Virus record (IMG/VR): IMGVR_UViG_3300020156_000063
Coordinates: 1-37,594 of that record
Direction: 5' to 3' (one strand)
From: a virus
DNA length: 37,594 nucleotides
Shown piece by piece: positions 3,785 through 33,859 of the stretch. Below the pieces are notes generated by a model. That model did no database searches. It was not told the DNA's origin and saw only the letters and a program-made list of their open reading frames with translations. Positions within the stretch are counted from its first letter, which is position 1. Every line of letters starts with the position of its first letter. Both the position numbers and the translations under genes were made by a program.

Positions 3785-4972
3785 ATGCCGCTCACCGACG
3801 TCGCCATCCGCAAGCTCCAGACGCCGCCCAGGCCCGTGAAGAAGTTCGATGCCGGCGGGCTCTACCTGCACCTCCAGCCCACCGGCTCGAAGATCTGGCG
3901 GATGAGCTACCGGTTCGCCGGCAAGCAGAACACCATCAGCTTCGGCCGCTACCCGGACGTGACGCTGGGGGATGCCCGTAAGCAGCGGGACGCGGCCAAG
4001 GAGCTGATCGAGGTCGGCTACGACCCGGTCGTGAAGCGCCAGCAGGAGCGCGAGCGGGCCATGTTCGCCGCGGCCAACACCTTCGAGGAGATCGGCCGGG
4101 AGTGGCAGGAGAAGCGGCTTAAGGAAGATTTAAGCCATTCGGCCCGCCGCAAGGATACACAGATGCTTAACCATCATGCGTATCCGGCGCTGGGGTCGCG
4201 GCGCATCGTCGAAATCACCGCGCCCGAGATCCTGGCCCTGATTCGCCGGGTCGAGGCCAAGGGGGCCACCGAGACCGCCCACCGGCTGCGCGGCACGATC
4301 AGCCGGGTGTTTCGCTACGCCATCGCCACCGGCCGGGCCGAGCGCGATCCGGCCGCGGCCCTGGTCGGCGCGTTGGTCGCCCACAACACCACCCACCACG
4401 CCGCGCTGTTCGAGCCGAAGGCCATCGGCGGCCTCATGCGGGCGATCGAGGGCTACGACGCCGCCGTGACGCGGGCGGCCCTCAAGCTGCAGGTCCACAC
4501 CTTCGTCCGGCCGAGCGAGCTGCGGCTGGCCGAGTGGACCGAGTTCGACCTGGATGGGGCGCTGTGGACGATCCCGGAAGGCCGCATGAAGATGGCCCGC
4601 AAGCACCTGGTCCCGCTGTCGCCGCAGGTGGTGGCGGTCCTGCGCGAGCTGCACACCATCACAGGGGAGGGGCGTTACCTGTTCCCCTCGATGCTGGGCG
4701 GCCGGCGGCCGATGTCCGACGCCACCGTCAACGCGGCCCTGCGGCGGATGGGCTACACCAAGGACCAGGTGGTCGGGCACGGCTTCCGGCGGACGGCCAG
4801 CACGATCCTGAACGAGTCGGGGCTGTTCAATTCGGATGCGATCGAGCGGCAACTGGCTCACGTCGATGGCGGGGTGCGCGGCATCTACAACGCCGCGGAG
4901 TACCTGCCCGAGCGGACGCGGATGATGACGTGGTATAGCGAGTGGCTCGACGCCCAGCGGGACCAGAGGTGA
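3785..4972 (+). CDS. int: P4-type tyrosine integrase
   Basis: 395 residues, the usual length for the DUF4102/P4 integrase group. Residues 1-85 form the DUF4102 arm-binding domain (MPLTDVAIRKLQ, FDAGGLYLHL, SFGRYPDVTLGDAR). Next comes a SAM-like core-binding helical domain (about 95-190), then the catalytic domain. The catalytic Arg lies in VRPSELRLAEW near 240, HGFRR (HxxR) near 335, and the nucleophile Tyr in GIYNAAEYL near 365. It integrates and excises the phage genome at an attB, probably a tRNA 3' end. The ATG is abutted by a TTACCTAC repeat instead of a ribosome site, so translation may be weak or the transcript leaderless. The next small gene is coupled by a GTGA overlap. Confidence 0.95.
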   Translation: MPLTDVAIRKLQTPPRPVKKFDAGGLYLHLQPTGSKIWRMSYRFAGKQNTISFGRYPDVTLGDARKQRDAAKELIEVGYDPVVKRQQERERAMFAAANTFEEIGREWQEKRLKEDLSHSARRKDTQMLNHHAYPALGSRRIVEITAPEILALIRRVEAKGATETAHRLRGTISRVFRYAIATGRAERDPAAALVGALVAHNTTHHAALFEPKAIGGLMRAIEGYDAAVTRAALKLQVHTFVRPSELRLAEWTEFDLDGALWTIPEGRMKMARKHLVPLSPQVVAVLRELHTITGEGRYLFPSMLGGRRPMSDATVNAALRRMGYTKDQVVGHGFRRTASTILNESGLFNSDAIERQLAHVDGGVRGIYNAAEYLPERTRMMTWYSEWLDAQRDQR

Positions 4973-5157: not shown

Positions 5158-5159
5158 GA

Positions 5160-5184: not shown

Positions 5185-5191
5185 AACACCT

Positions 5192-6906: not shown

Positions 6907-7833
6907 CTAACCGCCGAATAGCTCTGCAGCTTCTTCGAGCAGACGCTTGTCCTCGACCTCGCGCAGCAGCGTTGCGTCCCACTTCGACTCGTCGCGGATC
7001 TTCAGGATCGCCTGCTCGATCAGGTCTTGGATGACCTGCGGATCGAGCGCGTCCAGCTCCCAAGAGGACTCGCCGTACTGTTCCAGGTATGAGGCGGCAC
7101 GGCTGTCCGACAGCTTGCCATCCTTCACCTTCAACGGATTCGGTGGTGGATTGTATTGCTCGATCTGCGGCATGTTGAGGGCCAGGCGTTGCACCATGAT
7201 CGGCACGCCCGCAAACAATGACAGGCGTTCCTCGTTGTCGCGCGTCATGTCGATGCCGCTTGGATCGTGGTCTCCCAGGTAAAAGATGATCGGGCGCTGA
7301 CCCTTGCGGACATAGCCGGCCAACCGCTGACCTGCGCGCCAAGCCTCCGACATGCTGTCGTAACCCTTGGTCGCATAGAAGTCGACACGCAACTTGTCAC
7401 AGATCTCGCCCACCACGCCTTCGAGCGCGGCCTTTTCAACCCGCACTTCCGGGCGGAACGGTTGATCCTCCCACAGGTCGCGCCGATACAACCACCGATC
7501 GCCTTCCGTTGTCAGCGCCCGCATAGCCTCGACGGGTTTATCAAAGGTGCGATGGCCGCGGAGGTTGCGCCCTCGATCCTCGATCGCCGTCCAGGAGATC
7601 AAGCCTGCCATGCGACCATCCGAGACGATGTCGCCCAGCCGCTTGTAGTTGGCGTCGCTATTGACCAGCCAGTCGCGGGCGACGAACTGGTAGTAGATCT
7701 GGCGCAGAGTGAGGGAGAATCCCTTCGACTCGTACTCGCCGACGATCTTGTTCACGCCTTCGATGACATCGAGGTGGTCCCTGGTGAACTTCTTAGGGAT
7801 GTAGCATCGGTAGTGGCCGTTGTCCTGCATCAC
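6907..7833 (-). CDS. Topoisomerase VI A / Spo11-like Toprim protein
   Basis: 308 residues. Residues 38-60 (LTLRQIYYQFVARDWL) resemble the winged-helix (5Y-CAP) segment of topoisomerase VI subunit A/Spo11, whose Tyr makes the covalent bond to DNA; Y47 and Y48 are the candidates. A Toprim domain follows: the conserved Glu is in VRVEKAAL (E133) and the DxD is in YLGDHDPSGIDM (D188, D190). No ATPase B subunit is in the window, as in the stand-alone 'Mini-A' proteins described from mobile elements. It might nick or break DNA for replication or recombination; that is inference. The ATG overlaps the stop of the DUF2786 gene (ATGA), so the two are translated together. A non-catalytic Toprim nuclease is the main alternative. 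Confidence 0.75.
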   Translation of the reverse strand: MMQDNGHYRCYIPKKFTRDHLDVIEGVNKIVGEYESKGFSLTLRQIYYQFVARDWLVNSDANYKRLGDIVSDGRMAGLISWTAIEDRGRNLRGHRTFDKPVEAMRALTTEGDRWLYRRDLWEDQPFRPEVRVEKAALEGVVGEICDKLRVDFYATKGYDSMSEAWRAGQRLAGYVRKGQRPIIFYLGDHDPSGIDMTRDNEERLSLFAGVPIMVQRLALNMPQIEQYNPPPNPLKVKDGKLSDSRAASYLEQYGESSWELDALDPQVIQDLIEQAILKIRDESKWDATLLREVEDKRLLEEAAELFGG

Positions 7834-8905: not shown

Positions 8906-8944
8906 AACTTTCACTAAGAATGGTTCGAGCCCCTTATCAGGGGT

Positions 8945-9112
8945 CTAATCGTCATCGGATGGAGGCGTCACTTTGGTCGCATCAGTCATCACTACGGGCT
9001 GCTTCCCAGGTACAAAGAGAACGGGAGGATGACCGGTCCGGATCAGAACGACTGCATCGCAGGTCGCGATGAGGGTATGGCCGGCAAATGTGAAGTAGGG
9101 TGTTTTGTTCAT
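8945..9112 (-). CDS. Small protein, unknown function (array 1, last gene)
   Basis: 55 residues starting at the ATG at 9112 (MNKTPYFTF). An ATG five codons upstream falls inside the start-associated repeat; the repeat's GGACTCCGAAC block is positioned correctly only for 9112, so the shorter form is preferred. Two beta-like hydrophobic stretches (HTLIATCDAVVLI, PPVLFVPGKQPVVM) precede an acidic tail ending SDDD. No domain recognised. TAG lies in the terminal repeat copy. Confidence 0.6.
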   Translation of the reverse strand: MNKTPYFTFAGHTLIATCDAVVLIRTGHPPVLFVPGKQPVVMTDATKVTPPSDDD

Positions 9113-9136
9113 CAGTTCGGAGTCCATCAGAGGGTT

Positions 9137-9328
9137 CTAAATGAGGCCGCGGTAGTAGTTGTCCCACAGGCTATCCCAGTAGCTGTGATGGTCGTCAGCA
9201 CAGGGAGGACATAGCGGCACAGGCTTGTTGGGGTCGTCGGCAGATCCCGGCTCGCCCGTGTAGTGGTAGGCGGTTCGAGAGCTTTCCATCTCGACGCCTT
9301 CGGTGGAGTCGCAGTGATCGCACTTCAC
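9137..9328 (-). CDS. Small zinc-finger-like protein
   Basis: 63 residues with a GTG start directly after a start-associated repeat. CDHC at residues 3-6 and CPPC at 40-43 form two CxxC knuckles, with HH at 47-48, which indicates a single zinc ribbon or a treble-clef-like site. The Trp/Tyr-rich C-terminus (HSYWDSLWDNYYRGLI) may pack on a partner. Function unknown; a nucleic-acid or protein-binding adaptor is plausible. Confidence 0.65.
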   Translation of the reverse strand: MKCDHCDSTEGVEMESSRTAYHYTGEPGSADDPNKPVPLCPPCADDHHSYWDSLWDNYYRGLI

Positions 9329-9351
9329 GGTTCGGAGTCCTCTCAGGGGTT

Positions 9352-9669
9352 CTAACGGATGTCGAGCGCAGCGCGGATCTCTGCCCGCGCTTTGTTCTCA
9401 CCGCGGCGCTTACCCAGGTTGAACACGTTGTAAACTTTGTGAATGATACTGGCGCAAGCTTGGACCGAGACGATACCGTCCAGTTGCATGATGTCGTAGC
9501 TGGGCCAAGGATCGTCGGTGCCCGCGTTGTTGTTGAGCAGGCTGCGAGCAGGCTCACGACCGTTATCAATAGTCGTTAATCTCCAGTCACGACCGAGAAG
9601 CTGGAAACAGTAGGTGTTCCAGCCTTGGTGCTCTACCACTTCCTCGGTGTAGGGGAGTGCTTCTTTCAC
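9352..9669 (-). CDS. Small protein, unknown function
   Basis: 105 residues; GTG start following a start-associated repeat (GGACTCCGAACC). The N-terminal half has a beta-like pattern (WNTYCFQLLGRDWRLTTID); the C-terminal third is basic and helical (LGKRRGENKARAEIRAALDI). No family recognised. Its TAG sits in the repeat that provides the start signal of the next gene. Confidence 0.65.
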   Translation of the reverse strand: MKEALPYTEEVVEHQGWNTYCFQLLGRDWRLTTIDNGREPARSLLNNNAGTDDPWPSYDIMQLDGIVSVQACASIIHKVYNVFNLGKRRGENKARAEIRAALDIR

Positions 9670-9684
9670 GGTTCGGAGTCCCTC

Positions 9685-9906
9685 TCAGTCGCTCTGTTCT
9701 TCGCTGACGGTGTGCCCGTAGTGCGCGAGAACCGCGGCGAAAACGTCGCTCGGGCTGTAGTCATCCCCGCCGAAGCAGTGGGCGACCGGCAGCATCTCTA
9801 CCTCCACCTTGCCGTCGATGGTCACGCGCGCACCCTCGGCGTAGGTTGACCCGCAGGTCTCGCAATCGTGCGAGTCTGTCAGCCACTGGATCTTGATGTC
9901 GGCCAC
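9685..9906 (-). CDS. Small putative metal-binding protein
   Basis: 73 residues, GTG start after a start-associated repeat. HDCETCG near residues 13-19 and VAHCFGGDD near 41-49 give CxxC plus HC, a possible zinc site on a beta-hairpin-rich small protein. The C-terminal helix region (PSDVFAAVLAHYGHTVSEE) is acidic. Its TGA lies within the next repeat copy. Confidence 0.65.
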   Translation of the reverse strand: MADIKIQWLTDSHDCETCGSTYAEGARVTIDGKVEVEMLPVAHCFGGDDYSPSDVFAAVLAHYGHTVSEEQSD

Positions 9907-9921
9907 GGTTCGAAGTCCCTC

Positions 9922-10287
9922 TCAGGGCTGGAATAGGAGCGCGCGACGGTGCTCGACGTATGCCATCAGCAGGTTGCGCCCGTGCTTCCCCTGCTCATCC
10001 TCGACGCTAGGGTGCTTGTCCCAGACCTCCAGGCCGAAGTGCAGCCAGTCACGCGGATCAACGTCCGGTTTGACGCTGACCTCCGGATAAGCCGAATGGT
10101 CGAAGTTCGCGGAGCCCATCATCTTGAATCGGGCGCTCGACTCGAATGCGCGCCAGCGCTGGGCGTCGGCAAGGTCGCGCTCGCGAATGCGCAGCAACTC
10201 CATATACATGGACGCCAAGTCATGCTTGGTCTTGTTCATCAGGTAGCGGTGCGTGATCGGACCGCCGTGGTATTCAACGATTGCCAT
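9922..10287 (-). CDS. Small phage protein, unknown function
   Basis: 121 residues from ATG 10287, placed by the start-associated repeat (AGGACTTCGAA immediately upstream). A longer reading to 10314 would overlap the previous gene and translate the repeat, and is rejected. Helical N-terminal half (HDLASMYMELLRIRERDLAD), then PDVDPRDWLHFGLEVWDKHP. It ends QP-stop with the TGA inside the next repeat. No recognised domain. Confidence 0.65.
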   Translation of the reverse strand: MAIVEYHGGPITHRYLMNKTKHDLASMYMELLRIRERDLADAQRWRAFESSARFKMMGSANFDHSAYPEVSVKPDVDPRDWLHFGLEVWDKHPSVEDEQGKHGRNLLMAYVEHRRALLFQP

Positions 10288-10300
10288 TTCGAAGTCCTGC

Positions 10301-10489
10301 CTAGGGTTGTTCACTGAGCATTGCGACGAGTTCGGCCCTGAACGCCGTGTCGTGTTTCAGCTCGTCGATGATCGCATCGGCTTCGTCCAGGAACTCTTGC
10401 CAGCGCCAGTGTTCCGTATTGCCCTTACGATCAGGATCTAGGCCCGCGGCCACGCAGATGGTTCGGGCGAAGCGTTCTCTCACGTCCAT
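10301..10489 (-). CDS. Small acidic/helical protein, unknown function
   Basis: 62 residues; ATG at 10489 placed by the start-associated repeat at 10492-10517. Codons further upstream in this frame overlap the preceding gene. The sequence is helical throughout (VRERFARTICVAAGL, WQEFLDEADAIIDELKHD). It ends EQP-stop because the repeat's AACCCTAG is read as the final codons and the stop. Confidence 0.65.
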   Translation of the reverse strand: MDVRERFARTICVAAGLDPDRKGNTEHWRWQEFLDEADAIIDELKHDTAFRAELVAMLSEQP

Positions 10490-10506
10490 CGGCTTCGAAG
10501 TCCTGA

Positions 10507-10851
10507 CTAGGGTTGTGATTGGCGCTGCATTTCGCGCCGGTTCGGGTGGGCGGTACGCTCCTCGGTCGCCAGCCTTTGCAGTAGTTGCGCCCGGCTCTCC
10601 ATGTCGTCTTTGTAGCCGAGGAAGAACGTCGCTTTGTCGCGCAGGTGCTCTGGCAGCCAGGCTGACCGGAAGTTGTCGAAGCGTGCGATCGGCGCGTACT
10701 TCTCGATCTGGCGACCGCCGCGGGCAGCGCCGCGCACTTGGACGCGCTCGAACCCACCACCCGACCATCCGCCAAGTACCCACACCTTTGCCCCTTTGCG
10801 GAGCAGACGGTCGGTCTCGACTACATTCGCGATGATGCCGTACTCGTTCAC
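10507..10851 (-). CDS. Small phage protein, unknown function
   Basis: 114 residues with a GTG start (10851) after a start-associated repeat. Residues 18-35 (RKGAKVWVLGGWSGGGFERV) suggest a beta-barrel-like start. The middle is basic (RGGRQIEKYAPIARFDNFR), and a helix with many Arg follows. It ends SQP-stop, again from reading AACCCTAG of the next repeat. Function unknown. Confidence 0.65.
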   Translation of the reverse strand: MNEYGIIANVVETDRLLRKGAKVWVLGGWSGGGFERVQVRGAARGGRQIEKYAPIARFDNFRSAWLPEHLRDKATFFLGYKDDMESRAQLLQRLATEERTAHPNRREMQRQSQP

Positions 10852-10875
10852 GGGTTCGGTTCCTCGACTAGGGGT

Positions 10876-11049
10876 CTAACGCGTCGCCCGATAGGGCTTG
10901 CAGATCGGCTTGCCCCAGAGGACTTCCTTCTTGAGTTCAGCGCCGAGGCGCTGACACTCGGCCCAGGATGCAATACCATCGACGGCGAAGCTCGATTGCG
11001 CGTTGCCGGTGCCGTTGAACAGCATCACGAGGACGTACAGGGTGATCAT
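10876..11049 (-). CDS. Small exported peptide candidate
   Basis: 57 residues, ATG at 11049 directly after a start-associated repeat (GAGGAACCGAACTG). The N-terminus ITLYVLVMLFNGTGNAQS looks like a short signal peptide with an Ala-x-Ser-like end. The mature part has two Cys (32 and 50), compatible with one disulphide. It fills what would otherwise be a 200-base gap in the array, with the same junction signals on both sides, so I regard it as real despite its size. Confidence 0.6.
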   Translation of the reverse strand: MITLYVLVMLFNGTGNAQSSFAVDGIASWAECQRLGAELKKEVLWGKPICKPYRATR

Positions 11050-11073
11050 CAGTTCGGTTCCTCAACCAGGGTT

Positions 11074-11259
11074 CTAACGGGCGTTGATGAAGTCGTCCCT
11101 GGCGTTGATGGCATCACGCACCGCTCCAGCGTGGTCGTAGTGGCCCTTCTCGTCAGCCATGACGAGCGCCAGCACGCGGCCAGTTTCGCTGTCGCGGATC
11201 TCTACCCACGGCAGACCCCTGTTCAGTGCGGTCGCGGTGAGGTCGATGATGGCACGCAT
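11074..11259 (-). CDS. Small protein, unknown function
   Basis: 61 residues; ATG after a somewhat degenerate start-associated repeat (AGGGATTGAACTGAA). The pattern PWVEIRDSETGRVLALVMAD is a beta-hairpin, followed by an amphipathic helix (AGAVRDAINARDDFINAR). No family recognised. Confidence 0.65.
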   Translation of the reverse strand: MRAIIDLTATALNRGLPWVEIRDSETGRVLALVMADEKGHYDHAGAVRDAINARDDFINAR

Positions 11260-11293
11260 TTCAGTTCAATCCCTGTGCTGGTCTTCTAACGCC

Positions 11294-11650
11294 CTACGAC
11301 TCGTAAAATGTCGTGCCGTTGGCGGCGCGCTGACGATCGACGCTCTGGATGGCGGCGACGGCGATGCTGGCGACCTTCACCATGGCGGCGCGGAAGGCGT
11401 CAGTGACGGTGCGGTCGAGCGGCATGAAGGTGCCGACCATCCATTTCGTGGCGTACAGGCCGATGTAGGCGGCCCACATCCACGGGGTGTTCTCGATGTC
11501 GTCCACCTCGGTGCCCCACTTGCCGTCCTGCCGGATGCGCTCGGCCTCGATCTCCTGGAAGATGGCCTCCAGGGCGTCGGTGCCGTCGTAGTCCACATCG
11601 AACATCGGATCGTGCCGCGGGGTGCCGCCGCGGGTGTCGTAAGTGCCCAT
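11294..11650 (-). CDS. Conserved-type phage protein (ERIRQDGKWG motif)
   Basis: 118 residues. The central block EIEAERIRQDGKWGTEVDD followed by NTPWMWAAYIGLYATKW is a pattern common in small phage proteins of unknown function, in which a helix with ExxRQxxKWG leads into helical segments. It begins with a conventional AAGGAAAC ribosome site, not a repeat copy. It is second in array 1 and the most recognisable member. The acidic helix motif loosely recalls MazG-like folds, but the metal-binding set is incomplete. Confidence 0.75.
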   Translation of the reverse strand: MGTYDTRGGTPRHDPMFDVDYDGTDALEAIFQEIEAERIRQDGKWGTEVDDIENTPWMWAAYIGLYATKWMVGTFMPLDRTVTDAFRAAMVKVASIAVAAIQSVDRQRAANGTTFYES

Positions 11651-11654
11651 GGTC

Positions 11655-11870
11655 TCAGTTTCCTTCTTGGATGCGACGAAATCCGTCGCGGATTCGGCCG
11701 GTGGCCTTGTGCATCACCGTCGCGGGTTGCTTCGCGTGCTGCGTACAATAGAAGTTGCCCTTGCCGTCCGTGTAAGTCGCTTGACGCTCACAGGGGCCGC
11801 CGCCAGGTCGCAGACCGTAGCTCGGGTAGTACGGACCCTTTGATTGCGTACGTGCTTGGCAGTCAGGCAT
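11655..11870 (-). CDS. Small zinc-binding-type protein (first gene of array 1)
   Basis: 71 residues; ATG with GAGGGA upstream. Cys at about 4 and 28 and the pair C-T-Q-H at 43-46 give a CxxH-type site (GPCERQAT, FYCTQHA) like small zinc-ribbon proteins. The C-terminal tail is basic (KATGRIRDGFRRIQ), which could contact nucleic acid. It is the first gene downstream of P4; a repeat copy without a start codon lies in its leader. Confidence 0.65.
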   Translation of the reverse strand: MPDCQARTQSKGPYYPSYGLRPGGGPCERQATYTDGKGNFYCTQHAKQPATVMHKATGRIRDGFRRIQEGN

Positions 11871-11923
11871 ATCGTTGTCCCTCGGAGGTTCGGTCCCGTG
11901 TGCTGGGTTCTAATCACACACAG

Positions 11924-11963
11924 ACCGTAGGACTATCAACCTACTGTGTCAACAGTTAGTTGA
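11924..11963 (-). promoter_or_regulatory. Promoter P4 with the phage-wide palindromic operator (array 1)
   Basis: Minus strand: TTTCAACTAACTGTTGACA with a perfect TCAAC-N5-GTTGA (plus-strand 11949-11963), -35 TTGACA (11947-11952), 17-base spacer, -10 TACGGT (11924-11929). It is divergent from the LuxR gene; the CCCTTTAGGGG box lies about 35 bases beyond its -35. Confidence 0.75.
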
Positions 11964-11982
11964 AACTCCGTTCACGGCGAGC

Positions 11983-12028
11983 TGACCCTTTAGGGGGAGT
12001 GGCGACACCCGCGCGCCGTTGCTACGAT
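11983..12028 (+). promoter_or_regulatory. Candidate activator-dependent promoter of the LuxR gene
   Basis: TGACCCTTTAGGGGGAG (11983-11999) contains CCCTTTAGGG, a near-palindrome. About 30 bases further on, GTTGCTACGAT supplies a -10-like TACGAT (12023-12028), with no recognisable -35. The box centre would sit near -44 of the predicted start, where class II LuxR boxes sit. The same box precedes the next gene (12851-12866). Confidence 0.45.
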
Positions 12029-12071
12029 TCCGCCTTATTCACCGAATCACTACCCGAAGGAGGGTGCGTCG

Positions 12072-12851
12072 GTGACCCGGCTGGCGGACGCCCAGGCTTT
12101 CATCGAGCGGTCGAGAGTCGCTGAATCGCCGCAGGAAATGGCCGCTCTGATGTCGGACATCGCGGCCTACATGGGGTTCGACCATTATTCGCTGATGCAC
12201 CATGTCGACCTGTCATCCTACAGGAAGGATCTTGGTCACATGGCGGAGGGTGAGCTGATCCTGTTGACCAGCCACCCAGAGAGTTGGGTCGAGCATTACA
12301 TCGAAGACGACCTGCTGCAGATCGACCCCGTGGTGGCCGCGAGCAATCTGCGCGTGACCGGGTTCTCATGGAACGAGATTGCCACTCTGATCGACATGAC
12401 GACCGAGCAGCGCGGCTTCCTGGATGATGTCGCCAGGAGTGGTATCGGCGATGGCTGCACTGTTCCCATCCATGCGCCAGGGCAAGCATCCGGATCATGC
12501 AGTTTCTCGATGCGGCTGGGTCGCCCGTTGCCGACCAGCAACCTGCCCATGGCTCACCTCATCGGAGCCTTCGCCTTCGAAGCGGCAAGGGCCGTGGTCG
12601 TAAACGCCCGCAAGCTGGAGGCGCAACACACCCGGTTGACCGAGCGGCAGGTGGAATGCGCCATCCTGGTCGGCCGTGGACTGACCGAGCCAGATATCGC
12701 CAAGCAATTGGGCATCTCAGAAGAAACGGTGAAGCGACATCTGAAGGAAGCCCGGACAGCCTGCGGCGCAACCAAGAGTTTTCAGGTAGTGATCCGTTTA
12801 CTTTACGAAGGAAGAATTAGCCTGACTGACCTGCTTCACATGCGGGTGTGA
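12072..12851 (+). CDS. LuxR-family acyl-homoserine-lactone receptor/transcription factor
   Basis: 259 residues with a GTG start preceded by AAGGAGG. An autoinducer-binding domain spans about 15-165 and a GerE-type HTH about 186-250. The canonical ligand-pocket residues of the family (TraR W57, Y61, D70, P71, W85, G113) are present as W72, Y76, D85, P86, W100 and G128. The HTH reads LTERQVECAILVGRGL then GISEETVKRHL. At the position of the highly conserved Glu after LTxR there is Gln (Q193). No luxI synthase is in the window, so it is a LuxR solo reading host or neighbour signals. Phage-borne AHL receptors are known from a few phages. It lies between divergent small-gene arrays, well placed to regulate P4 and the next gene. 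Confidence 0.92.
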   Translation: MTRLADAQAFIERSRVAESPQEMAALMSDIAAYMGFDHYSLMHHVDLSSYRKDLGHMAEGELILLTSHPESWVEHYIEDDLLQIDPVVAASNLRVTGFSWNEIATLIDMTTEQRGFLDDVARSGIGDGCTVPIHAPGQASGSCSFSMRLGRPLPTSNLPMAHLIGAFAFEAARAVVVNARKLEAQHTRLTERQVECAILVGRGLTEPDIAKQLGISEETVKRHLKEARTACGATKSFQVVIRLLYEGRISLTDLLHMRV

Positions 12852-12900
12852 CCCTTTGAGGGGAGGGACCGCGCTCGGTTGCTATGCCTAAGTTATAGGC
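12851..12900 (+). promoter_or_regulatory. Second copy of the LuxR-gene box, upstream of the small gene
   Basis: ACCCTTTGAGGGGAG (12851-12865) starts at the last base of the LuxR stop codon and is followed by CGCGCTCGGTTGCTATG, parallel to CGCGCGCCGTTGCTACG upstream of the LuxR gene. The box-to-GTTGCTA distance is 26 bases here and 32 there. A perfect inverted repeat GCCTA-AGTTA-TAGGC (12886-12900) follows. This is a candidate promoter controlled by the same regulator as the LuxR gene. Confidence 0.45.
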
Positions 12901-12923
12901 ACATTGAATCGCTGGGGCTGATT

Positions 12924-13142
12924 ATGCAACCTCGTGAGTACCACCACATTGTTGAGACAGGTGACTGGGCCGCCGACAATCGCGCCGGCCGTGAGGCGGC
13001 GATCATCTGCATCCGCCACATGGTCGAGAATGGTACACCGAACCACCTCTGCCAGGTCGTGCGCGGCATGATCTCGAAGGGCCGGTTCGGCGGCGTGGAA
13101 GTCGGGTTCTTCACGGCGATCGGCATCATGCTGATCGAGTAG
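12924..13142 (+). CDS. Small phage protein downstream of the LuxR gene
   Basis: 72 residues from ATG 12924, with GGGG eight bases upstream; a TTG at 12879 would start inside the putative promoter and is rejected. The sequence YHHIVETGDWAADNRAGREA then LCQVVRGMISKGRFGGVEV is compact alpha-helical. I have an impression of similar short phage proteins but no known function. The box shared with the LuxR promoter suggests that it is the receptor's target; a small antirepressor-like or regulatory protein is a reasonable guess only. Confidence 0.65.
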   Translation: MQPREYHHIVETGDWAADNRAGREAAIICIRHMVENGTPNHLCQVVRGMISKGRFGGVEVGFFTAIGIMLIE

Positions 13143-13145
13143 GGG

Positions 13146-13160
13146 AGGGGTCAGGCCCCT
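13146..13160. terminator. Short hairpin between convergent genes
   Basis: AGGGG-TCAGG-CCCCT is a 5-bp stem between the stop at 13142 and the convergent stop at 13151. Just beyond it CCCTG-TCT-CAGGG (13157-13169) is a second stem belonging to the terminal repeat copy. There are no T-runs. Confidence 0.3.
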
Positions 13161-13330
13161 GTCTCAGGGTTCGAATTGGAGCGTTCGACCCGCTCGCCGA
13201 TCTCCTTTAGGTAGCGGTCGTCAGCAGGCATTTCGGAGCCGCAGAACCACCAGTCACCACCCCGCCCGAACTCGGCCACCTTCCAGCCGGTGCCGGTGCG
13301 AACCCAATAGAATCCTGGCTCTCGTTTCAT
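13151..13330 (-). CDS. Small aromatic-rich phage protein (last gene of array 2)
   Basis: 59 residues from ATG 13330, fixed by the repeat at 13331-13357. EPGFYWVRTGTGWKVAEFG followed by WWFCGSEMP is a pattern typical of small phage proteins of unknown function, probably a small beta sheet. The C-terminus SNSNPETGA is the translated terminal repeat copy. Confidence 0.7.
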   Translation of the reverse strand: MKREPGFYWVRTGTGWKVAEFGRGGDWWFCGSEMPADDRYLKEIGERVERSNSNPETGA

Positions 13331-13353
13331 CGTTCGATCCCTATCTCGGGGTT

Positions 13354-13578
13354 CTAACGGTCGAGTGCCGTCTTGATGGTGCGTTGCGGATCGCACCACA
13401 GATGCTTGTCGAGGAACGCCAGGAGCCCGGCCTTGTCCGTGGGCACATCCACGACGCTGACGCGGGAGGTATCCCCGGCCTCGACGGCGAGACGGTTAGC
13501 GTGGCGCTCGGTCGTCGCCCAGGCCGTCTGCTGCGCAGTCGGGTTATCGTCGTGCCAATCGACGCGATAGAACTTCAT
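13354..13578 (-). CDS. Small protein, unknown function
   Basis: 74 residues; ATG overlaps the previous stop (ATGA) behind a repeat copy. A beta strand (MKFYRVDWHDD) leads into an Ala-rich helix (ATTERHANRLAVEAG), then a strand (SRVSVVDVP) and a helix (KAGLLAFLDKHL), suggesting a compact alpha/beta fold. Function unknown. It stops with TAG just before the repeat that starts the next gene. Confidence 0.7.
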   Translation of the reverse strand: MKFYRVDWHDDNPTAQQTAWATTERHANRLAVEAGDTSRVSVVDVPTDKAGLLAFLDKHLWCDPQRTIKTALDR

Positions 13579-13820
13579 GGTTCGGTCCCTGCTTTGGGGT
13601 TCTGATCGAAGTGGGTGTGAAGTTCGGCTGCTATCGCCGGGTGAACGATGAGCCGGTTTCCCACGCGAAAGGCGGCAGGCTTCATCGCGAACTCGCCGCC
13701 GAAGCGCTTGATCAGCTTCTTACGGATGCGCTTGCTGCGGTGACGGGACTCGGGGAACAACCGCTCCTCGGTCTGCGCCAGCGCGTTGGCCGTCACGATC
13801 AGATCGGCCATGCCGATCAT
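13575..13820 (-). CDS. Small basic protein, unknown function
   Basis: 81 residues from ATG 13820, set by the repeat at 13821-13847 and the ATGA overlap with the previous stop. Longer in-frame readings run through two other genes. Residues 28-40 are strongly basic (HRSKRIRKKLIKRF), then GNRLIVHPAIAAELHTHF, possibly a DNA- or RNA-binding helix pair. The C-terminal QNPKAGTEP is translated repeat sequence. Confidence 0.65.
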   Translation of the reverse strand: MIGMADLIVTANALAQTEERLFPESRHRSKRIRKKLIKRFGGEFAMKPAAFRVGNRLIVHPAIAAELHTHFDQNPKAGTEP

Positions 13821-14062
13821 GGTTCGACCCCCTGCTTGGGGTTGGAATTTGGCAGTAGGTGGTACTGGCACTCTAGCGACAGGACGTGTCGACCATCGTC
13901 GAGGCGGATGATCAGCAGTCCAGGCTTCACCGCATCCTCGCGCACGATAACGCCCTTGAACGCCGGCCCCGTGAAGCCGAACAGCACTTCGACACGCCTT
14001 CCGAGCCACGACCCCTGCTCGGGATACGCCTCGCTGGTCGCCAAGCCTTCGATTACGGGCAT
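13817..14062 (-). CDS. Small beta-rich protein, unknown function
   Basis: 81 residues. The strands RRVEVLFGFTGPAFKGVIVRE and GLLIIRLDDGRHVLSLE look like a small SH3/KOW-like barrel, a fold frequent in phage accessory proteins. Its ATG lies 10 bases inside the preceding gene, behind AGAGGGTCGAAACGAC. The C-terminal NSNPKQGVEP is the translated repeat. Confidence 0.65.
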   Translation of the reverse strand: MPVIEGLATSEAYPEQGSWLGRRVEVLFGFTGPAFKGVIVREDAVKPGLLIIRLDDGRHVLSLECQYHLLPNSNPKQGVEP

Positions 14063-14304
14063 GTCGTTTCGACCCTCTGCTTGGTCTTGGAGTTGGCTCT
14101 GTCGAACGCTGCCGTTCGAGCTTCATCGACTGTCTTGTAGATGGCTTCGCTGTATTCGGTATCGGTGTGCCGACCGAGGTGTCGGCCGGAGTCGTAGGGG
14201 TAAGGCGAGAGCGTAAAGCCAAAGAGCCAACTCTTTCGCCAGATCCAATACGAACACCAATGCTCGCCGGCCGGAAGCGGAGCAGGTCTGTAAAGCTCGC
14301 TCAT
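14053..14304 (-). CDS. Small Trp/Tyr-rich protein, unknown function
   Basis: 83 residues, ATGA overlap with the preceding gene behind a repeat copy. The N-terminal half is aromatic (EHWCSYWIWRKSWLFGFTL) with PYPYDSGRHLGRH; a helix follows (SEAIYKTVDEARTAAFDRA). The last ten residues (TKQRVETTCP) come from a variant repeat copy and the start of the next gene. No domain recognised. Confidence 0.65.
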   Translation of the reverse strand: MSELYRPAPLPAGEHWCSYWIWRKSWLFGFTLSPYPYDSGRHLGRHTDTEYSEAIYKTVDEARTAAFDRANSKTKQRVETTCP

Positions 14305-14579
14305 CGCTGTTCGATCCCCTGCTTCGGGTTCTGATCGGCGGCCGACCAGGGCGTGCCGTCCTCATTGATCCTGTGGCTGGCCCATCGCAGGAACTTGTCC
14401 ATGTCCACGCGGGGATAGTGACGACCGTTCGGGATCGAGTAGCTGTCGTACTGCAGGTCCAAGCCAAGCCGGCCGATGTAGATGACGACGCGGTCGTTCA
14501 TCTCGCCGTTCGAGCAGCGCGCCGGACGCTTGGCGCGGTAGAGGCCGCCAACAACGATGTCTTCGCGGGTGAGGCTCAT
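14301..14579 (-). CDS. Conserved-type small phage protein, unknown function
   Basis: 92 residues. The pattern VGGLYRAKRPARCSNG, NDRVVIYIG, QYDSYSIPNGRHYPRVDMDK and FLRWASHRI is one I associate with a recurrent small phage protein of unknown function; it is probably a beta barrel with a final helix. The ATG is three bases after the previous TGA. The C-terminal QNPKQGIEQR is encoded by the repeat. Confidence 0.7.
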   Translation of the reverse strand: MSLTREDIVVGGLYRAKRPARCSNGEMNDRVVIYIGRLGLDLQYDSYSIPNGRHYPRVDMDKFLRWASHRINEDGTPWSAADQNPKQGIEQR

Positions 14580-14582
14580 CGG

Positions 14583-14831
14583 TCAGGTCCCTGGAAACGA
14601 GGTGTGATCGTCGAGGGGCGCGACGCGCTTGATGATTGCCTGCGCCCGAAGTTGCTTTTCGCGCTCGTTCAGATCGGCGCGGTAAAAGAGTTGGCCGACC
14701 TCGTGGATTGCGCGCTCAAGCTCCTCCTTCCGGGCGAGGGTAGTTTTGAGGTCTGAGACCCGAACGCTCGCCCAGATGCGATCAGCCGTTTGCGCACCTT
14801 GGAGCATGTCTCGCAGCCGTTGCTCGCTCAT
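14583..14831 (-). CDS. Small coiled-coil-like protein
   Basis: 82 residues, almost entirely helical (LRDMLQGAQTADRIWASV, LKTTLARKEELERAIHEV, NEREKQLRAQAIIKRV), so probably a short coiled coil or helical bundle. Its ATG overlaps the previous TGA (ATGA) and is preceded by the repeat copy at 14833-14856. Function unknown. Confidence 0.7.
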   Translation of the reverse strand: MSEQRLRDMLQGAQTADRIWASVRVSDLKTTLARKEELERAIHEVGQLFYRADLNEREKQLRAQAIIKRVAPLDDHTSFPGT

Positions 14832-15073
14832 CGCTGTTCGATCCCTGGAACGGACGTGGAAATGGCCGCGAGGCCGGCGTCGGTGATGGTGGCGAAGGTT
14901 GGACCGATCAGCGGGTTGAGCAGTTCAAGGCGCATAAGCTCGCGGATGGTCTCGTCACGTCGGCGACGCGCTTGACCGTAAAGCGGACCGTTGGCGTGGA
15001 ATGCGTCCTTACAGTCGCTTTTTGCCGTCGCCACCAGAATCTCCTTCTGCCTCCGGGTGAGCTTCAGGCTCAT
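14828..15073 (-). CDS. Small winged-helix-like protein
   Basis: 81 residues. KLTRRQKEILVATAKSD, then RRRRDETIRELMRLELL and FATITDAGLAAI follow the helix / recognition-helix / wing order of small MarR/PadR-like winged helices (LTxxQxxIL ... TITxxGxxAI). It may bind DNA and is the only such candidate inside the arrays, so it could be a regulator of the arrays themselves. The last residues PGIEQR are translated repeat sequence. ATG after a good repeat copy (AAGGGATCGAACG). Confidence 0.6.
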   Translation of the reverse strand: MSLKLTRRQKEILVATAKSDCKDAFHANGPLYGQARRRRDETIRELMRLELLNPLIGPTFATITDAGLAAISTSVPGIEQR

Positions 15074-15084
15074 CGTTCGATCCC

Positions 15085-15465
15085 TTAGTGAGGGTCAGCA
15101 GTGGGCGGAGCGATCTGCCGGTCCAACCATGCGTTGAGCGCCTGGACGGCCTTGTCGCCCGTGTCGCCGGTCAGGACGTGCTCACCGAGTTCAGATGCGG
15201 CGATGGCGTAGAGGGTCGCGTTGGACGGGACGATGGTTCCGACAATCCCGGCGGCCAACACGGGCAGCCACAGCGCCTTGCCGACCTTGGCGATGGATGG
15301 GGTGACGGGAGGTTCGCCGAAGCCGGCGTTTGCAACGCGAGCGACCCCCTTACCGAGCGCATAGAGGGACAGGGCGATAACTCCCCCGTAGAACCCGAAG
15401 CCGCAGACGGCGTTCACGTCACCCGCTACGTCGGCGGCGTAGATCAACCAGGATAGTTCGTTCAT
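15085..15465 (-). CDS. Small integral membrane protein
   Basis: 126 residues with probable transmembrane segments near 20-40 (CGFGFYGGVIALSLYALG), 65-80 (ALWLPVLAAGIVGTIV) and possibly a shorter one near 82-92. The C-terminal 35 residues are soluble and acidic/helical. The start has GGAGAAGACG upstream and only a weak repeat copy. Its TAA lies in the loop of the next repeat. A superinfection-exclusion or lysis-related role is conceivable but unsupported. Confidence 0.7.
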   Translation of the reverse strand: MNELSWLIYAADVAGDVNAVCGFGFYGGVIALSLYALGKGVARVANAGFGEPPVTPSIAKVGKALWLPVLAAGIVGTIVPSNATLYAIAASELGEHVLTGDTGDKAVQALNAWLDRQIAPPTADPH

Positions 15466-15495
15466 CGTCTTCTCCGCTCGATCCCGTGGTTGTGA

Positions 15496-15762
15496 TCAGT
15501 TCTCGTGGATTTCGTGCTCAGGCACGCCGGCCTCGACGAGCCAGGCCACCAAAGCCTCGCGGGATTCGAACTCGTGGACCTGGCCGACGTAGCCGGGCGC
15601 GTCGGTCGTCTCGACCTCGGCGCACCACTTGAACGCATCGTCGTTGCTGATTTCGGCCGACGTGGGCGTTCCGTGACGCCCATCGTCCAGCCAGGCGATG
15701 AAGTCGCCGGGCGTGTCGTGCGGCAGGAAGATGGTGTCGCCGAAAAAGTTCTTCTTGGTCAT
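15496..15762 (-). CDS. Small acidic protein, unknown function (first gene of array 2)
   Basis: 88 residues; ATG preceded by GAGGGACGAGGACG. It has an alpha/beta pattern with HDTPGDFIAWLDDGRHG and FESREALVAWLVEAGVPEHE, and is strongly acidic overall, which could fit a DNA-mimic or protein-binding role, but nothing more can be read. It is directly downstream of P5. Confidence 0.7.
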   Translation of the reverse strand: MTKKNFFGDTIFLPHDTPGDFIAWLDDGRHGTPTSAEISNDDAFKWCAEVETTDAPGYVGQVHEFESREALVAWLVEAGVPEHEIHEN

Positions 15763-15821
15763 CGTCCTCGTCCCTCAATTCGATCCCCGGAGTGGTCGTC
15801 CGACCGCGTCTCCGTTGCGCC

Positions 15822-15862
15822 TATGTAGGAACATTCACCTACGCGTGTCAACAGAAAGTTGA
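15822..15862 (-). promoter_or_regulatory. Promoter P5 with the phage-wide palindromic operator (array 2)
   Basis: Minus strand: TCAACTTTCTGTTGACA (perfect palindrome, plus-strand 15848-15862), -35 TTGACA (15846-15851), and -10 TACATA at 18 bases (15822-15827) or CTACAT at 17. It is divergent from the promoter of the AlpA-like gene. Confidence 0.75.
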
Positions 15863-15890
15863 CGATAATCCGACCCCGTCACGCCTCGGC

Positions 15891-15920
15891 TTGCGTTTCA
15901 ACCATTTGGTGAGTTACAAT
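15891..15920 (+). promoter_or_regulatory. Promoter of the AlpA-like gene and packaging operon
   Basis: TTGCGT (15891-15896), 18-base spacer, TACAAT (15915-15920); GGAGGA follows at 15931 and the GTG at 15945. It lacks the TCAAC-N5-GTTGA palindrome, so it is probably regulated differently from P5. Confidence 0.5.
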
Positions 15921-15944
15921 CATCCGGCGCGGAGGACCGCATGT

Positions 15945-16154
15945 GTGTCGAGCAACGAGATCGAGTTTTGGCGTCTACCCCGTGTGAAAGCGGCCACCGG
16001 CCTCAGCAAGACCGAGATCTACCGGCAGGTCATGGAGGGGCGGTTCCCCCGGCCCAAGAAGTATCCCGGCAGCACCATGAGCTACTGGCTGTCGACGGAC
16101 GTGCGGCAATGGCAGGCGGACCTGCTGGCGCGCGCCGATGAGCGATGCCTTTGA
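15945..16154 (+). CDS. AlpA-family helix-turn-helix protein
   Basis: 69 residues from a GTG at 15945 with GGAGGA eight bases upstream; longer readings run through the divergent promoter. FWRLPRVKAATGLSKTEIYR then GRFPRPKKYPGSTMSYW and STDVRQWQ matches the AlpA/excisionase-like winged HTH along its length. AlpA proteins act as small activators or excisionases. Being the first gene ahead of the terminase and overlapping it by 17 bases, it may be a late-gene activator or autoregulator; its distance from the integrase argues against a simple excisionase. Confidence 0.8.
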   Translation: MSSNEIEFWRLPRVKAATGLSKTEIYRQVMEGRFPRPKKYPGSTMSYWLSTDVRQWQADLLARADERCL

Positions 16155-16866
16155 AGACCTGCTAGGCAGCGGCGGCGATCCTGCCCCGCCGAAGCGCCGC
16201 CCCGGCCGCCCCACCCGCGAAGAGGCCGCCGCCAAGGCCCTGCAGGAGCGCGTCGCCCTGACGGCCGCGGCGTCCGGGCGCGCCCTGGAGGATGTCGGCG
16301 GGGTGCAGGCGCTGCGCCGGCCGGTGACGATCAACACCCTGGCCACCGTGTTCGGCCACGACGTCCAGACGATCACCCGCCGGCTGATCGACTGCCCCCA
16401 CACGGTCCAGAGCAACCGCAAGCTCTACGACTTCAAGGAAGCCTGCTCCTACATCATCAAGCCGCGGATGACGCCCGAGCAGTTCGTCAAGACGCTCAAC
16501 AAGGCGGACCTTCCGCCCGAGATCAACCTGGCCTTCTGGAACGCCCAGCGCGCCAAGCTGAAGTTCAAGCTGGAGGCGCAGGAAGCCTGGGAAACGGGCG
16601 ACGTGCAGCATGTCGTCGGGAAGGCGTTCCTGACCATCAAGGAGAGCCTGACGACCGTGGTCGAGGAAATGCGCGAGCGGGCCAAGCTGACCGACGAGCA
16701 GACCAAGATCCTGGAAGAGGCGATCGACACGCTGCGCCAGGGCCTGCACGACCAGCTCGTCGACCTGCAGGCGCAGAGCCGCACCAGTTCGATCCTGGAG
16801 CAGCCGATGTTCGGCACCTCGAAGGATATCCAGCCGGACACCTTCGATGAGTGGGACGATGAGTAA
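16138..16866 (+). CDS. Terminase small subunit (Nu1/DUF1441-like)
   Basis: 242 residues. N-terminal Pro/Arg-rich stretch (PPKRRPGRPTREEA). Then a HTH-like block (TINTLATVFGHDVQTITRRL) that would recognise the packaging site, as in Nu1-type small subunits with a DUF1441 domain. Next come a helical oligomerisation region (AFWNAQRAKLKFKLEAQEAW) and an acidic C-terminus ending DEWDDE, which could contact the large subunit. It is directly upstream of the GpA-type large subunit, separated only by a tiny zinc-ribbon gene. It overlaps the AlpA-like gene. Confidence 0.8.
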   Translation: MSDAFEDLLGSGGDPAPPKRRPGRPTREEAAAKALQERVALTAAASGRALEDVGGVQALRRPVTINTLATVFGHDVQTITRRLIDCPHTVQSNRKLYDFKEACSYIIKPRMTPEQFVKTLNKADLPPEINLAFWNAQRAKLKFKLEAQEAWETGDVQHVVGKAFLTIKESLTTVVEEMRERAKLTDEQTKILEEAIDTLRQGLHDQLVDLQAQSRTSSILEQPMFGTSKDIQPDTFDEWDDE

Positions 16867-17017
16867 GGTTCACCTGAACATCGGCATGGGTTTCCCGGCC
16901 TGCGGAGTCGAACGGCGCGCCCGATCGTGGTCGTGCGTGATCACCACCAGCTACTCCAAGGACGTGGTGAACTGCGCCCGCTGCAAGGCGACCAAGATGT
17001 TCGGGCGATCCGCGTGA
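16859..17017 (+). CDS. Tiny zinc-ribbon-like protein between the terminase genes
   Basis: 52 residues. The ATG lies within the last codons of the small-subunit gene (eight-base overlap) and the TGA overlaps the GTG start of the large subunit (GTGA). Four Cys at 15, 26, 39 and 42 (PACGVERR, WSCVIT, VNCARCKATKMFG) form a probable zinc ribbon ending in a CxxC knuckle. The strict coupling on both sides and the Cys set argue that it is real. It could be a terminase accessory or nucleic-acid-binding protein; function unknown. Confidence 0.65.
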   Translation: MSKVHLNIGMGFPACGVERRARSWSCVITTSYSKDVVNCARCKATKMFGRSA

Positions 17018-19203
17018 CCGGCCAACGGGCGCTGGTCAAGGATCGTCCGGCGTCGTTCCCGAGCCTGGAGACGATCATCGCCGCCGCGGCCGAGGCGATC
17101 CGCCCGCCCGAGCGCCTGACGGTCACCGAGGCGGCGGTGAAGTACGTCCGCATCAAGGAGAAGAACTACTCCGGTCCGTGGTCGGTCGAGAAGACCCCGT
17201 ACCTCGTCGAGCCGCAGAACGAACTGATGAGCCTGGACTTCACCGGCATGGTGTTCGTCGGGCCGGCCCGGACGGGCAAGTCGCAGATGTTCCTGAACTG
17301 GCTGGCGGCGACGGCGATCTGCGATCCGATGGACATGATGCTGCTGCACATGAGCCAGGCGACGGCCCGCAACTGGTCGCTGTCGGACCTGGCCAAGATG
17401 ATCCGCCACTCGCCCGACTTCCGCTCGCGGCTGGTCGCCGGCCGCCAGCAGGACAACGTCTACGACAAGGCGTTCGTCTCCGGGATGCGGCTGCAGATCA
17501 TCCACCCGTCGATCAACGAACTGTCGGGCAAGACGGTCGGCCGCAACTGGGCGATGGACTACGATCGCCTGCCGCCGAACATCGACGGCGAAGGCGACGC
17601 CTGGACGCTGCTCAAGAAGCGCGCCCAGACCCTGAAGCGCTACGGCATGACGGCCGCCGAGTCCTCGCCCGGCTTCCCAGTCCTCGACGGCAAGTGGATC
17701 GCGCGCAGCCCGCACGAGGCCCCGCCCTGCGAGGGCATCCTGTCGCTCTACAACGACGGCGACCGGCGGCGCTGGTACTGGCGCTGTCCGCAGTGCCGGG
17801 GCTCGTTCGAACCGCACCGCAAATTGCTGGTCTATCCGAAGTCGGCCGACCCGATGGAATCGGCCGAGCAGGTCGTCATGGCCTGCCCGCACGACGGCTT
17901 CCCGATGACGCCGGATTTCCAACACGAGCTGAACCTGGGCGGCCGGTGGATCAAGGAGGGGCAGCACTGGCTGGAGGACGGCTCGATCGTCGGCACGCCG
18001 CGGCGGTCGGACATCGCCTCGTTCTGGATGTTCGGTCCGGCGGCGGCTTTCACCTCCTGGCCTGAACTGGTGCTCAAGCGCCTGAACGCCGAGGCGGACT
18101 TCGAGCGCACCGGCAGCGAGGAGAAGCTGAAGGCGGTCACCAACACCGACGACGGCGAGCCCTACACCCCGAAGGCGCTCGAAGCCGGACGCCTGCCGGA
18201 GGAACTGAAGGCCCGCGCCAGGCCCTACAGCGTCCGCGGCCAGGTGCCGGAGGGCGTCCGCTTCCTGATCACCACCATCGACGTGCAGAAGAACGCCTTC
18301 GTCTGCCACACCTATGGGATCGAACCGGTGCAGATGGGGGGCGGCGCATGGAGCTACGACGTCTACCACGTCGATATGTGGCGCATCCTGAAGTCGCGGC
18401 GGCTGGATGAGGACGCCCACCCTCTGCCGATCGACCCGCCGACCAACAAGGAAGACTGGCATGTCCTTATCGACGAGGTGATCGAGAGGAGCTATCCGCT
18501 GGCGGACGGATCAGGCCGCCACATGCAGGTGAAGCTCATCGCCTGCGACTCGGGCGGCGCGGCGAGCGTGACGGCGGCGCGCCTCAACGCCGCTCTCGAC
18601 GGTCCCACGGTCAGCACCACCTCGAACGCCTACGATTTCTGGCGCTTTCTGCGTGACGATCCGGCCGGCCGCAACTACCACAGCCGCTTCCATCTGCTGA
18701 AGGGCGAGCCCAGCCGCAGCGCACCCTCACTGCTGCAGACCTTTCCCGACTCGCAGCAGAAGGACAGATACGCCGTCGCTCGCGGCGACGTGCCCGTGTG
18801 GGCGGTGAACTCGAACGTTGTGAAGGATGCGGCGCACAACATGCTGGGACGCGCCGAGCCGGGCGGTCGGGTTCATTTCCCGCTGTGGTTCGAGGAGAGC
18901 GGAGAGCCGGAAAACATTGACTGGCTCTACAGCCAGCTCACGACCGAAGTCCGGCTGCCGGCGGGGTGGCGAAACCTGGCTCGCCGGAAGAACGAGGCGT
19001 TCGACCTGCTCGCCTATCTGGTCGCGTTCATGAAGCATCCACAGATCCGGATTGAGCACATCAAATGGAGCAGTCCGCCGGGCTGGGCGGCCGACTGGGA
19101 CAAGAACGACCTGGTGTTCACGCCGATCGAGGGCCGGCCGTTCGCGCCGGAGCCGAAGAAGCCCGGCAAGACGCTGGCCGAACTGGCGCAGGAACTGGCC
19201 TGA
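17014..19203 (+). CDS. Terminase large subunit, GpA family
   Basis: 729 residues from the GTG at 17014 that overlaps the preceding stop; earlier in-frame starts lie inside the zinc-ribbon gene. Walker A-like GPARTGKSQM is near residues 83-92 in the N-terminal ATPase. A MDYDRLPPN block near 180 occupies the Walker B region of GpA-type enzymes. A CPQC...C-P-H motif near 265-300 is the zinc-like insert common in the GpA family. The C-terminal half has the nuclease region (TTIDVQKNAFVCHTYGIE near 425, DSGG near 515, NEAFDLLAYLVAF near 660). It cuts and translocates phage DNA into the prohead; the gpA-type suggests cohesive-end packaging. Confidence 0.92.
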   Translation: MTGQRALVKDRPASFPSLETIIAAAAEAIRPPERLTVTEAAVKYVRIKEKNYSGPWSVEKTPYLVEPQNELMSLDFTGMVFVGPARTGKSQMFLNWLAATAICDPMDMMLLHMSQATARNWSLSDLAKMIRHSPDFRSRLVAGRQQDNVYDKAFVSGMRLQIIHPSINELSGKTVGRNWAMDYDRLPPNIDGEGDAWTLLKKRAQTLKRYGMTAAESSPGFPVLDGKWIARSPHEAPPCEGILSLYNDGDRRRWYWRCPQCRGSFEPHRKLLVYPKSADPMESAEQVVMACPHDGFPMTPDFQHELNLGGRWIKEGQHWLEDGSIVGTPRRSDIASFWMFGPAAAFTSWPELVLKRLNAEADFERTGSEEKLKAVTNTDDGEPYTPKALEAGRLPEELKARARPYSVRGQVPEGVRFLITTIDVQKNAFVCHTYGIEPVQMGGGAWSYDVYHVDMWRILKSRRLDEDAHPLPIDPPTNKEDWHVLIDEVIERSYPLADGSGRHMQVKLIACDSGGAASVTAARLNAALDGPTVSTTSNAYDFWRFLRDDPAGRNYHSRFHLLKGEPSRSAPSLLQTFPDSQQKDRYAVARGDVPVWAVNSNVVKDAAHNMLGRAEPGGRVHFPLWFEESGEPENIDWLYSQLTTEVRLPAGWRNLARRKNEAFDLLAYLVAFMKHPQIRIEHIKWSSPPGWAADWDKNDLVFTPIEGRPFAPEPKKPGKTLAELAQELA

Positions 19204-33782: not shown

Positions 33783-33859
33783 CTCAGTTCGGTCCCTTCG
33801 ACCGTCCCCGGCCGGTGAGGGGACGCGGACCCATTCCGCGCCCCATACCTACAGACGTC

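Follow-up and report, generated by a model that had tools for sequence, protein, structure and literature searches.

Does a luxR gene that lies in the early region of a phage, followed directly by a small gene of 72 codons, control these two genes, and does it tie the phage to a bacterial signal? The window, meaning the whole stretch of DNA analyzed, was IMG/VR virus record IMGVR_UViG_3300020156_000063 (37,594 bases). Judged by its gene content the phage is a temperate siphovirus with an integrase, the presence of the tyrosine integrase marking it as temperate (Table 1). Homologues of the integrase, xis, terminase, portal, capsid, tail (including tape measure) and gp51 genes of RcMaeve, a temperate Rhodobacter capsulatus phage of the Casjensviridae, were found in the window, and a terminase small subunit and a tape measure protein were also recognized using Pfam/PHROG. 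RcMaeve differs in that no LuxR is annotated in it, and nothing homologous to its repressor gp78 occurs in the window. The host is probably a sphingomonad, since the top matches of the receptor fall nearly all in the Sphingomonadales, which is a pointer to the host and no proof of it. A 308-aa protein (6907-7833, minus strand) matched PHROG 6247 (DNA topoisomerase) at 3e-90, with no Pfam match at E values up to 1.

The receptor matched PF03472 (Autoind_bind; 6.3e-29, 100.8 bits, cut-off 23) and PF00196 (GerE; 6e-8, 32.6 bits, cut-off 23.5), both domains lying above the curated cut-offs. It also matched the structures of SdiA, RhlR, CviR and TraR in a sequence search. All six pocket positions (W72, Y76, D85, P86, W100 and G128) are kept with the spacing found in TraR, where the equivalent residues are W57, Y61, D70, P71, W85 and G113. 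The sequence-only reading had described a full-length LuxR-type protein with its pocket residues, and the two domains and six kept positions agree with that description; assignment of the protein to the AHL-receptor type of LuxR is well supported by its sequence. The ribosome site of the gene is AAGGAGG. An AlphaFold model of the receptor (pLDDT 49) was too poor for use.

The closest relatives of the receptor were LuxR proteins of sphingomonad plasmids (38-42% identity), and the LuxR proteins of Aeromonas phages were only about 24% identical to it. In most of the top plasmid relatives luxR stands directly 5' of an acyl-homoserine-lactone synthase gene (luxI), which is followed by a phytanoyl-CoA dioxygenase gene (phyH). 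The deep forks of the tree were unresolved, and the luxI-linked sphingomonad receptors were the nearest rows by path. A pattern scan of IMG/VR with the receptor alone gave no relatives, while alignment scans of IMG/VR gave one LuxR relative. A scan of genome contigs for the receptor yielded a partial GerE match only, and genomes from the order to which the matching record belongs yielded HTH matches only.

Table 1. Position, strand and basis of the features discussed; positions are those of the window.
Feature	Position	Strand	Basis or remark
Tyrosine integrase	3785..4972	+	Pfam and PHROG integrase; 42% identity to RcMaeve integrase
Leftward early promoter P4	11924..11963	-	TTGACA-N17-TACGGT; 15-bp palindrome TCAACAGTTAGTTGA over its -35
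Lux box 1, CCCTTTAGGGGG (CCC-N6-GGG), putative control site of luxR promoter	11986..11997	.	Twin of box 2; form of sphingomonad luxI boxes
Predicted extended -10 of luxR promoter, TTGCTACGAT (TG-C-TACGAT)	12019..12028	+	Exactly +34 bp from box 1
luxR, AHL-receptor-type LuxR transcription factor, 259 aa, GTG start	12072..12851	+	Pfam, structure matches, sphingomonad relatives
Lux box 2, CCCTTTGAGGGG, putative, directly 3' of luxR stop	12852..12863	.	Relatives 60.5-67.5 bp before luxI
Predicted, ambiguous -10 region of 72-aa gene	12879..12894	+	TGCTATGCC at +28 bp or TAAGTT at +34 bp from box 2 centre
72-aa small protein, distant relative of Casjensviridae gp51-like proteins, luxI position	12924..13142	+	RcMaeve gp51, Ruegeria and RcCWillis homologues
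AlpA-like excisionase/regulator, start codon uncertain	15944..16154	+	PF05930 2.5e-7 (longer ORF); RcMaeve xis 4.6e-7
TCA(A/C)C-N5-G(G/T)TGA copies	2180, 2689, 6862, 8891, 11949, 15848, 15898, 19294, 24240	.	Window scan

Two blocks of sequence are shared by the regions upstream of luxR and of the 72-aa gene. In the first pair, TGACCCTTTAGGGGGAG (11983-11999) and TGACCCTTTGAGGGGAG (12849-12865) are identical at 15 of 17 positions, the second copy starting on the luxR stop codon (TGA, 12849-12851); in the other pair, CCGCGCGCCGTTGCTA (12009-12024) and CCGCGCTCGGTTGCTA (12869-12884) are identical at 14 of 16. Within the 37.6-kb window there are just two copies each of GTTGCTA and CCCTTT..GGGG. 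The co-linear score of the two blocks was 25, against a maximum of 18 in 500 shuffles, and the gapped local alignment of the two upstream regions scored 50, higher than any of 2,912 alignments of the first region to other segments of the window (highest 45.5). A shared box and GTTGCTA block, the second set beginning at the LuxR stop, had been claimed before; the identities and shuffles confirm this, with the addition that box and GTTGCTA are not equally spaced at the two sites, the difference being 6 bp.

The boxes are of the form CCC-N6-GGG and are centred 80.5 bp 5' of the luxR start (box 1) and 66.5 bp 5' of the 72-aa gene (box 2). This form alone is not rare, with 18 occurrences in the window and 19.9 in shuffles, and it was also found inside start-associated repeats of leftward genes. 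That the boxes are merely such repeats was rejected, because the repeats are found no more than about 10 nt from the start codons of leftward genes and are flanked by GTTCGAT/GTTCTAA, which is absent from the boxes. The consensus search gave no -35 at either site, and promoters of the ordinary -35/-10 type were therefore rejected for luxR as well as for the 72-aa gene. Action of the boxes as RNA hairpins or terminators is extremely improbable. CCC-N-GGG could pair, and a T run follows the palindrome in L013, a P2-like prophage relative, but no co-directional gene precedes box 1 and no T run comes after either box; the terminator reading was rejected as no terminator-like site was found in 11800-13300.

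The same form was found where the relatives control luxI. Their luxR-luxI intergenic regions carry a palindrome such as TCCCCAGTTCTGGGGA, and in 8 of 9 relatives a CCC-N6-GGG element between luxR and luxI is centred 60.5-67.5 bp 5' of the luxI start codon; in three plasmids this start was set at the aligned ATG seen in the sequence, in place of an annotated or missing one. In L013 the core CCCCTTTAGGGG occupies the same place before luxI. The palindrome lies at a variable distance from the luxR stop (4-76 nt) and at a constant distance from the next start, as expected for a promoter element. Box 2, which adjoins the luxR stop, thus fits the 60-68 bp of the sphingomonad luxR-luxI promoter plan with its 66.5 bp to the 72-aa gene, and that gene accordingly occupies the luxI slot.

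In classical lux promoters of the class II plan the centre of the box is about 34 bp from the centre of the -10. An extended -10 (TGN plus a hexamer starting with T) was found at exactly +34 bp in 6 of 8 relatives and at phage box 1. Across all the DNA compared, 7 of 129 CCC-N6-GGG sites had TGN-T....T at +33 to +35, six of the seven being sites of the relatives or box 1. The plasmid relatives are partly redundant and not all independent, and the half-sites of the phage boxes agree with theirs in CCC/GGG only, the inner bases being different. At box 2 the TGN extended -10 stands at +28 instead of +34 bp, and the hexamer at +34 (TAAGTT) is weak, so the promoter of the 72-aa gene may work differently. 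Transcription is predicted to start near 12035 for luxR and at 12895-12901 for the 72-aa gene. That both phage boxes look like lux boxes is well supported by this comparison. A recent duplication of a promoter that is read by an ordinary sigma factor or a protein other than LuxR would also give twin boxes; weak similarity beyond the two blocks (GAATC.CT) and the frequency of CCC...GGG in the phage genome are in keeping with it. We regard it as very unlikely, in view of the lack of a -35 at either site and the box form, place and spacing shared by eight relatives in their luxR-luxI intergenic regions.

Taken together, the locus resembles the luxR-luxI-phyH loci of sphingomonad plasmids (e.g. 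Sphingobium sp. SYK-6 pSLPG, Sphingomonas naphthae) in the receptor (38-42%), in the box form and its spacing of 60-68 bp, and in the extended -10 at +34 bp, which it has at box 1. It differs from them in that luxI and phyH are lacking, a small phage gene follows luxR, and there is an extra box before luxR. The proposal of the sequence-only reading that the receptor acts on luxR itself and on the 72-residue gene gains support from the twin boxes and from the position of the latter gene, which is that of luxI in the relatives.

The 72-aa protein is 36% identical to RcMaeve gp51. The match is a distant one: tblastn with gp51 gave 2e-7 on the window and 0.03 on the whole phage collection, and the gp51-like sequence TGD[WY]AAD...G ... 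GVE[IV]GF is present in the protein. Members of the family also occur in RcCWillis and in Ruegeria phages. The 72-aa protein gave no Pfam, PHROG or NCBIfam match, and a single-sequence AlphaFold model was all helical with low confidence (pLDDT 60). Pattern scans of IMG/VR that used either the single 72-aa sequence or alignments containing it gave no relatives. A search for the gene pair in other prophages had been suggested earlier; the IMG/VR scans gave no second phage with luxR and the 72-aa gene together.

These data also bear on the alternative that luxR is cargo (a moron), that is, a host gene which arrived with its promoter, senses AHL and regulates mainly host targets, the 72-aa gene being an ordinary early gene that lies downstream by chance. 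The clade of the receptor is host and plasmid derived, no luxR has been reported in the phages of the gp51-like family, and in Rhodobacter phages the gp51-like gene stands last in an ordinary early operon, all of which would suit a moron. Nevertheless box 2 has been retained at its distance from the 72-aa gene, with a twin before luxR, and the luxI slot holds a phage gene and not a remnant of luxI; the cargo reading is accordingly judged unlikely.

Genes for signal synthesis and for a classical repressor were looked for in six frames of the contig, which may be incomplete. PF00765 (luxI) was absent; the same search was positive in L013 and in a plasmid. For XRE proteins HTH_3 had no match at E<=1 and HTH_26 matched only below threshold inside LuxR itself, and no S24/CI-type repressor match was obtained, although controls matched in both the XRE and S24 searches. 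Scans of the small ORFs of the contig gave no repressor. With no autoinducer synthase in the contig the phage looks like a listener, and it probably responds to a bacterial signal without making any.

The reading that we favour, and consider probable from the sequence comparisons, is a listening-only quorum-sensing circuit in which LuxR together with external AHL activates its own gene and a small phage gene through the two lux boxes. LuxR would bind an acyl-homoserine lactone released by the host or its neighbours, dimerize, and then bind both CCC-N6-GGG boxes. At box 1 it would activate the luxR promoter, which lacks a -35 but carries an extended -10 34 bp from the box centre, and so create positive feedback. 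At box 2 it would activate the 72-aa gene, which stands in place of the luxI of the source locus. The 72-aa protein would be the output that alters the behaviour of the phage at high signal. We lean slightly towards an output that favours induction of the lytic side, the sequence being compatible with lysis as well as with lysogeny.

Published precedents for the outcome of a phage LuxR point both ways. In Aeromonas phages LuxR with an XRE protein leads to a small antirepressor and to lysis (PMC10432266, PMC9894119), while the LuxI/LuxR switches of Phaeobacter inhibens prophages promote lysogeny and not lysis, the quorum-sensing module standing where CI is expected (PMC13345283, 2026 preprint). 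The XRE-LuxR-smORF modules of Aeromonas phage ARM81ld and Apop (PMC6456758, PMC10432266, PMC9894119) likewise combine a phage LuxR-type receptor without luxI and an adjoining gene for a small protein, but here neither XRE nor CI was found, and the small gene is co-directional and has homologues in other phages. In the TF-smORF lysis module (PMC10432266) the small gene is divergent from the transcription factor gene, the phage LuxR has an XRE partner, of which none was found in this contig, and the small protein inactivates the CI repressor. The xre-luxR-luxI modules of P. inhibens (PMC13345283) are similar in belonging to an alphaproteobacterial prophage in which LuxR has its own promoter and no CI/Cro was found; they differ in having luxI and xre in the luxR operon and an opposite hth gene, whereas xre, luxI and an adjacent hth gene are lacking here. 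VqmA-Qtip of vibriophage VP882 (via PMC6456758, PMC10432266) is comparable in that a receptor encoded by the phage responds to a signal of the host and drives a small phage protein, yet the family and ligand of VqmA are unrelated to those of the phage LuxR, and no relation of the 72-aa protein to Qtip is known.

The analogy to lysis control by phage LuxR-type or VqmA receptors, drawn in the sequence-only reading, is weak in its particulars when set against VqmA and the ARM81ld TF-smORF module: the small gene is co-directional, no XRE or CI was found, and homologues of the 72-aa protein occur in phages with an immunity repressor of their own. As RcMaeve is annotated with both an integrase and an immunity repressor, membership in the gp51 family speaks neither for nor against an antirepressor role. 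The locus would operate like other phage eavesdropping through LuxR but lacks defining features of the TF-smORF modules and of the xre-luxR-luxI switches, and the receptor was therefore classed, from its sequence context, as a prophage-borne LuxR solo whose promoter plan is that of the sphingomonad luxR-luxI loci.

Divergent from luxR lies P4 (TTGACA at 11952-11947, a spacer of 17 bp, and TACGGT at 11929-11924), a consensus-like leftward promoter whose -35 starts 34 bp from box 1, in line with the approximately 35 bases given earlier. The predicted start of P4 has box 1 about 74 bp upstream, by its spacing possibly a class I position. The 15-bp palindrome TCA(A/C)C-N5-G(G/T)TGA was present in 8 exact copies (0.07 expected from shuffles) plus a near copy at 2689. 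All copies are intergenic, though just 8% of the window is intergenic, and those at 6862, 8891, 11949, 15848 and 2689 overlap the -35 of promoters resembling TTGAC(A/G)-N17-TAC..T. They are probably the operator set of the phage, judging by number and placement; no protein binding this palindrome was found in the phage.

It was also considered that luxR and the 72-aa gene form a lysis-lysogeny switch that acts on P4, directly or through the 72-aa protein, with the quorum-sensing module replacing CI. The failure to find XRE (HTH_3, HTH_26) or S24 matches in six frames where controls matched, or a repressor among the scanned small ORFs, would fit such a switch, as would the position of the two genes, which are divergent from P4 and the sole rightward genes in a 10.5-kb leftward early block; in P. 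inhibens prophages without CI/Cro a quorum-sensing module does serve as the switch (PMC13345283). On the other hand, the early promoters have another palindrome, TCAACAGWWAGTTGA, which is unlike the lux box, so that another DNA-binding protein probably acts there. Box 1, at its distance from the predicted P4 start, is too far away for steric block, RcMaeve has a gp51 homologue plus a separate repressor, and the contig may be incomplete. The switch reading is for these reasons held to be improbable. Its strong form, in which the AHL receptor and 72-aa protein are the switch of a temperate phage lacking CI/Cro, with immunity and induction hanging on a signal that the phage cannot make, seems quite unlikely; if it were true, neighbouring bacteria would decide the fate of the phage.

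Phage-encoded LuxR receptors are few, comprising those of plasmid-like Aeromonas phages and of roseobacter prophages (2026 preprint, PMC13345283). New here is a phage LuxR in an integrase-carrying siphovirus of probably sphingomonad hosts. The listening-only circuit suggests a possible route of origin, in which the receptor and promoter plan of a luxR-luxI locus are retained and the synthase gives way to a small phage gene, turning a sender-receiver into a pure listener. The sphingomonad form of the lux box (CCC-N6-GGG, extended -10 at +34) is directly testable and could be used for finding regulons, and the gp51-like family of small proteins gains its first testable context.

Two IMG/VR phage contigs were found to contain luxR with luxI. 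In L013 (4486-7810) and L018 (IMGVR_UViG_3300026078_000632) an S24/CI-like repressor gene is followed in a row by luxR, luxI (Autoind_synth 2.6e-16) and phyH; the P2-like L013 contig has portal, terminase, scaffold and capsid genes. Read from its genes, the L013 locus is a complete AHL sender and receiver of the sphingomonad type beside a phage repressor, beyond the roseobacter cases of PMC13345283. L023 (IMGVR_UViG_2928899058_000001, 4425-6519) has a CI-like small regulator, luxR, luxI (Autoind_synth 8.8e-18) and a counter-oriented Ner-like gene, the regulators having been called by eye; the arrangement resembles an xre-luxR-luxI switch with an opposite hth gene. GenBank entry MT835580.1 ("Bacteriophage sp."; L003) has luxR, luxI-like and phyH-like genes at 14890-17243, as on sphingomonad plasmids, and no matching CCC-N6-GGG box; the stretch that was read resembles a chromosome or plasmid more than a phage.

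Within the rightward tail gene block of the window there is a second leftward cluster of small genes (31673-34400, minus strand), in which 33214-33576 gave a Phage_ProQ_C_like match (4.2e-16). A hairpin-like repeat, TTAGAACCC-N5..7-GGGATCGAAC followed by ATG, was located 5' of at least 11 small leftward gene starts (8920-15100 and 32774-33796, minus strand); it resembles the start-associated sequences of some mycobacteriophages.
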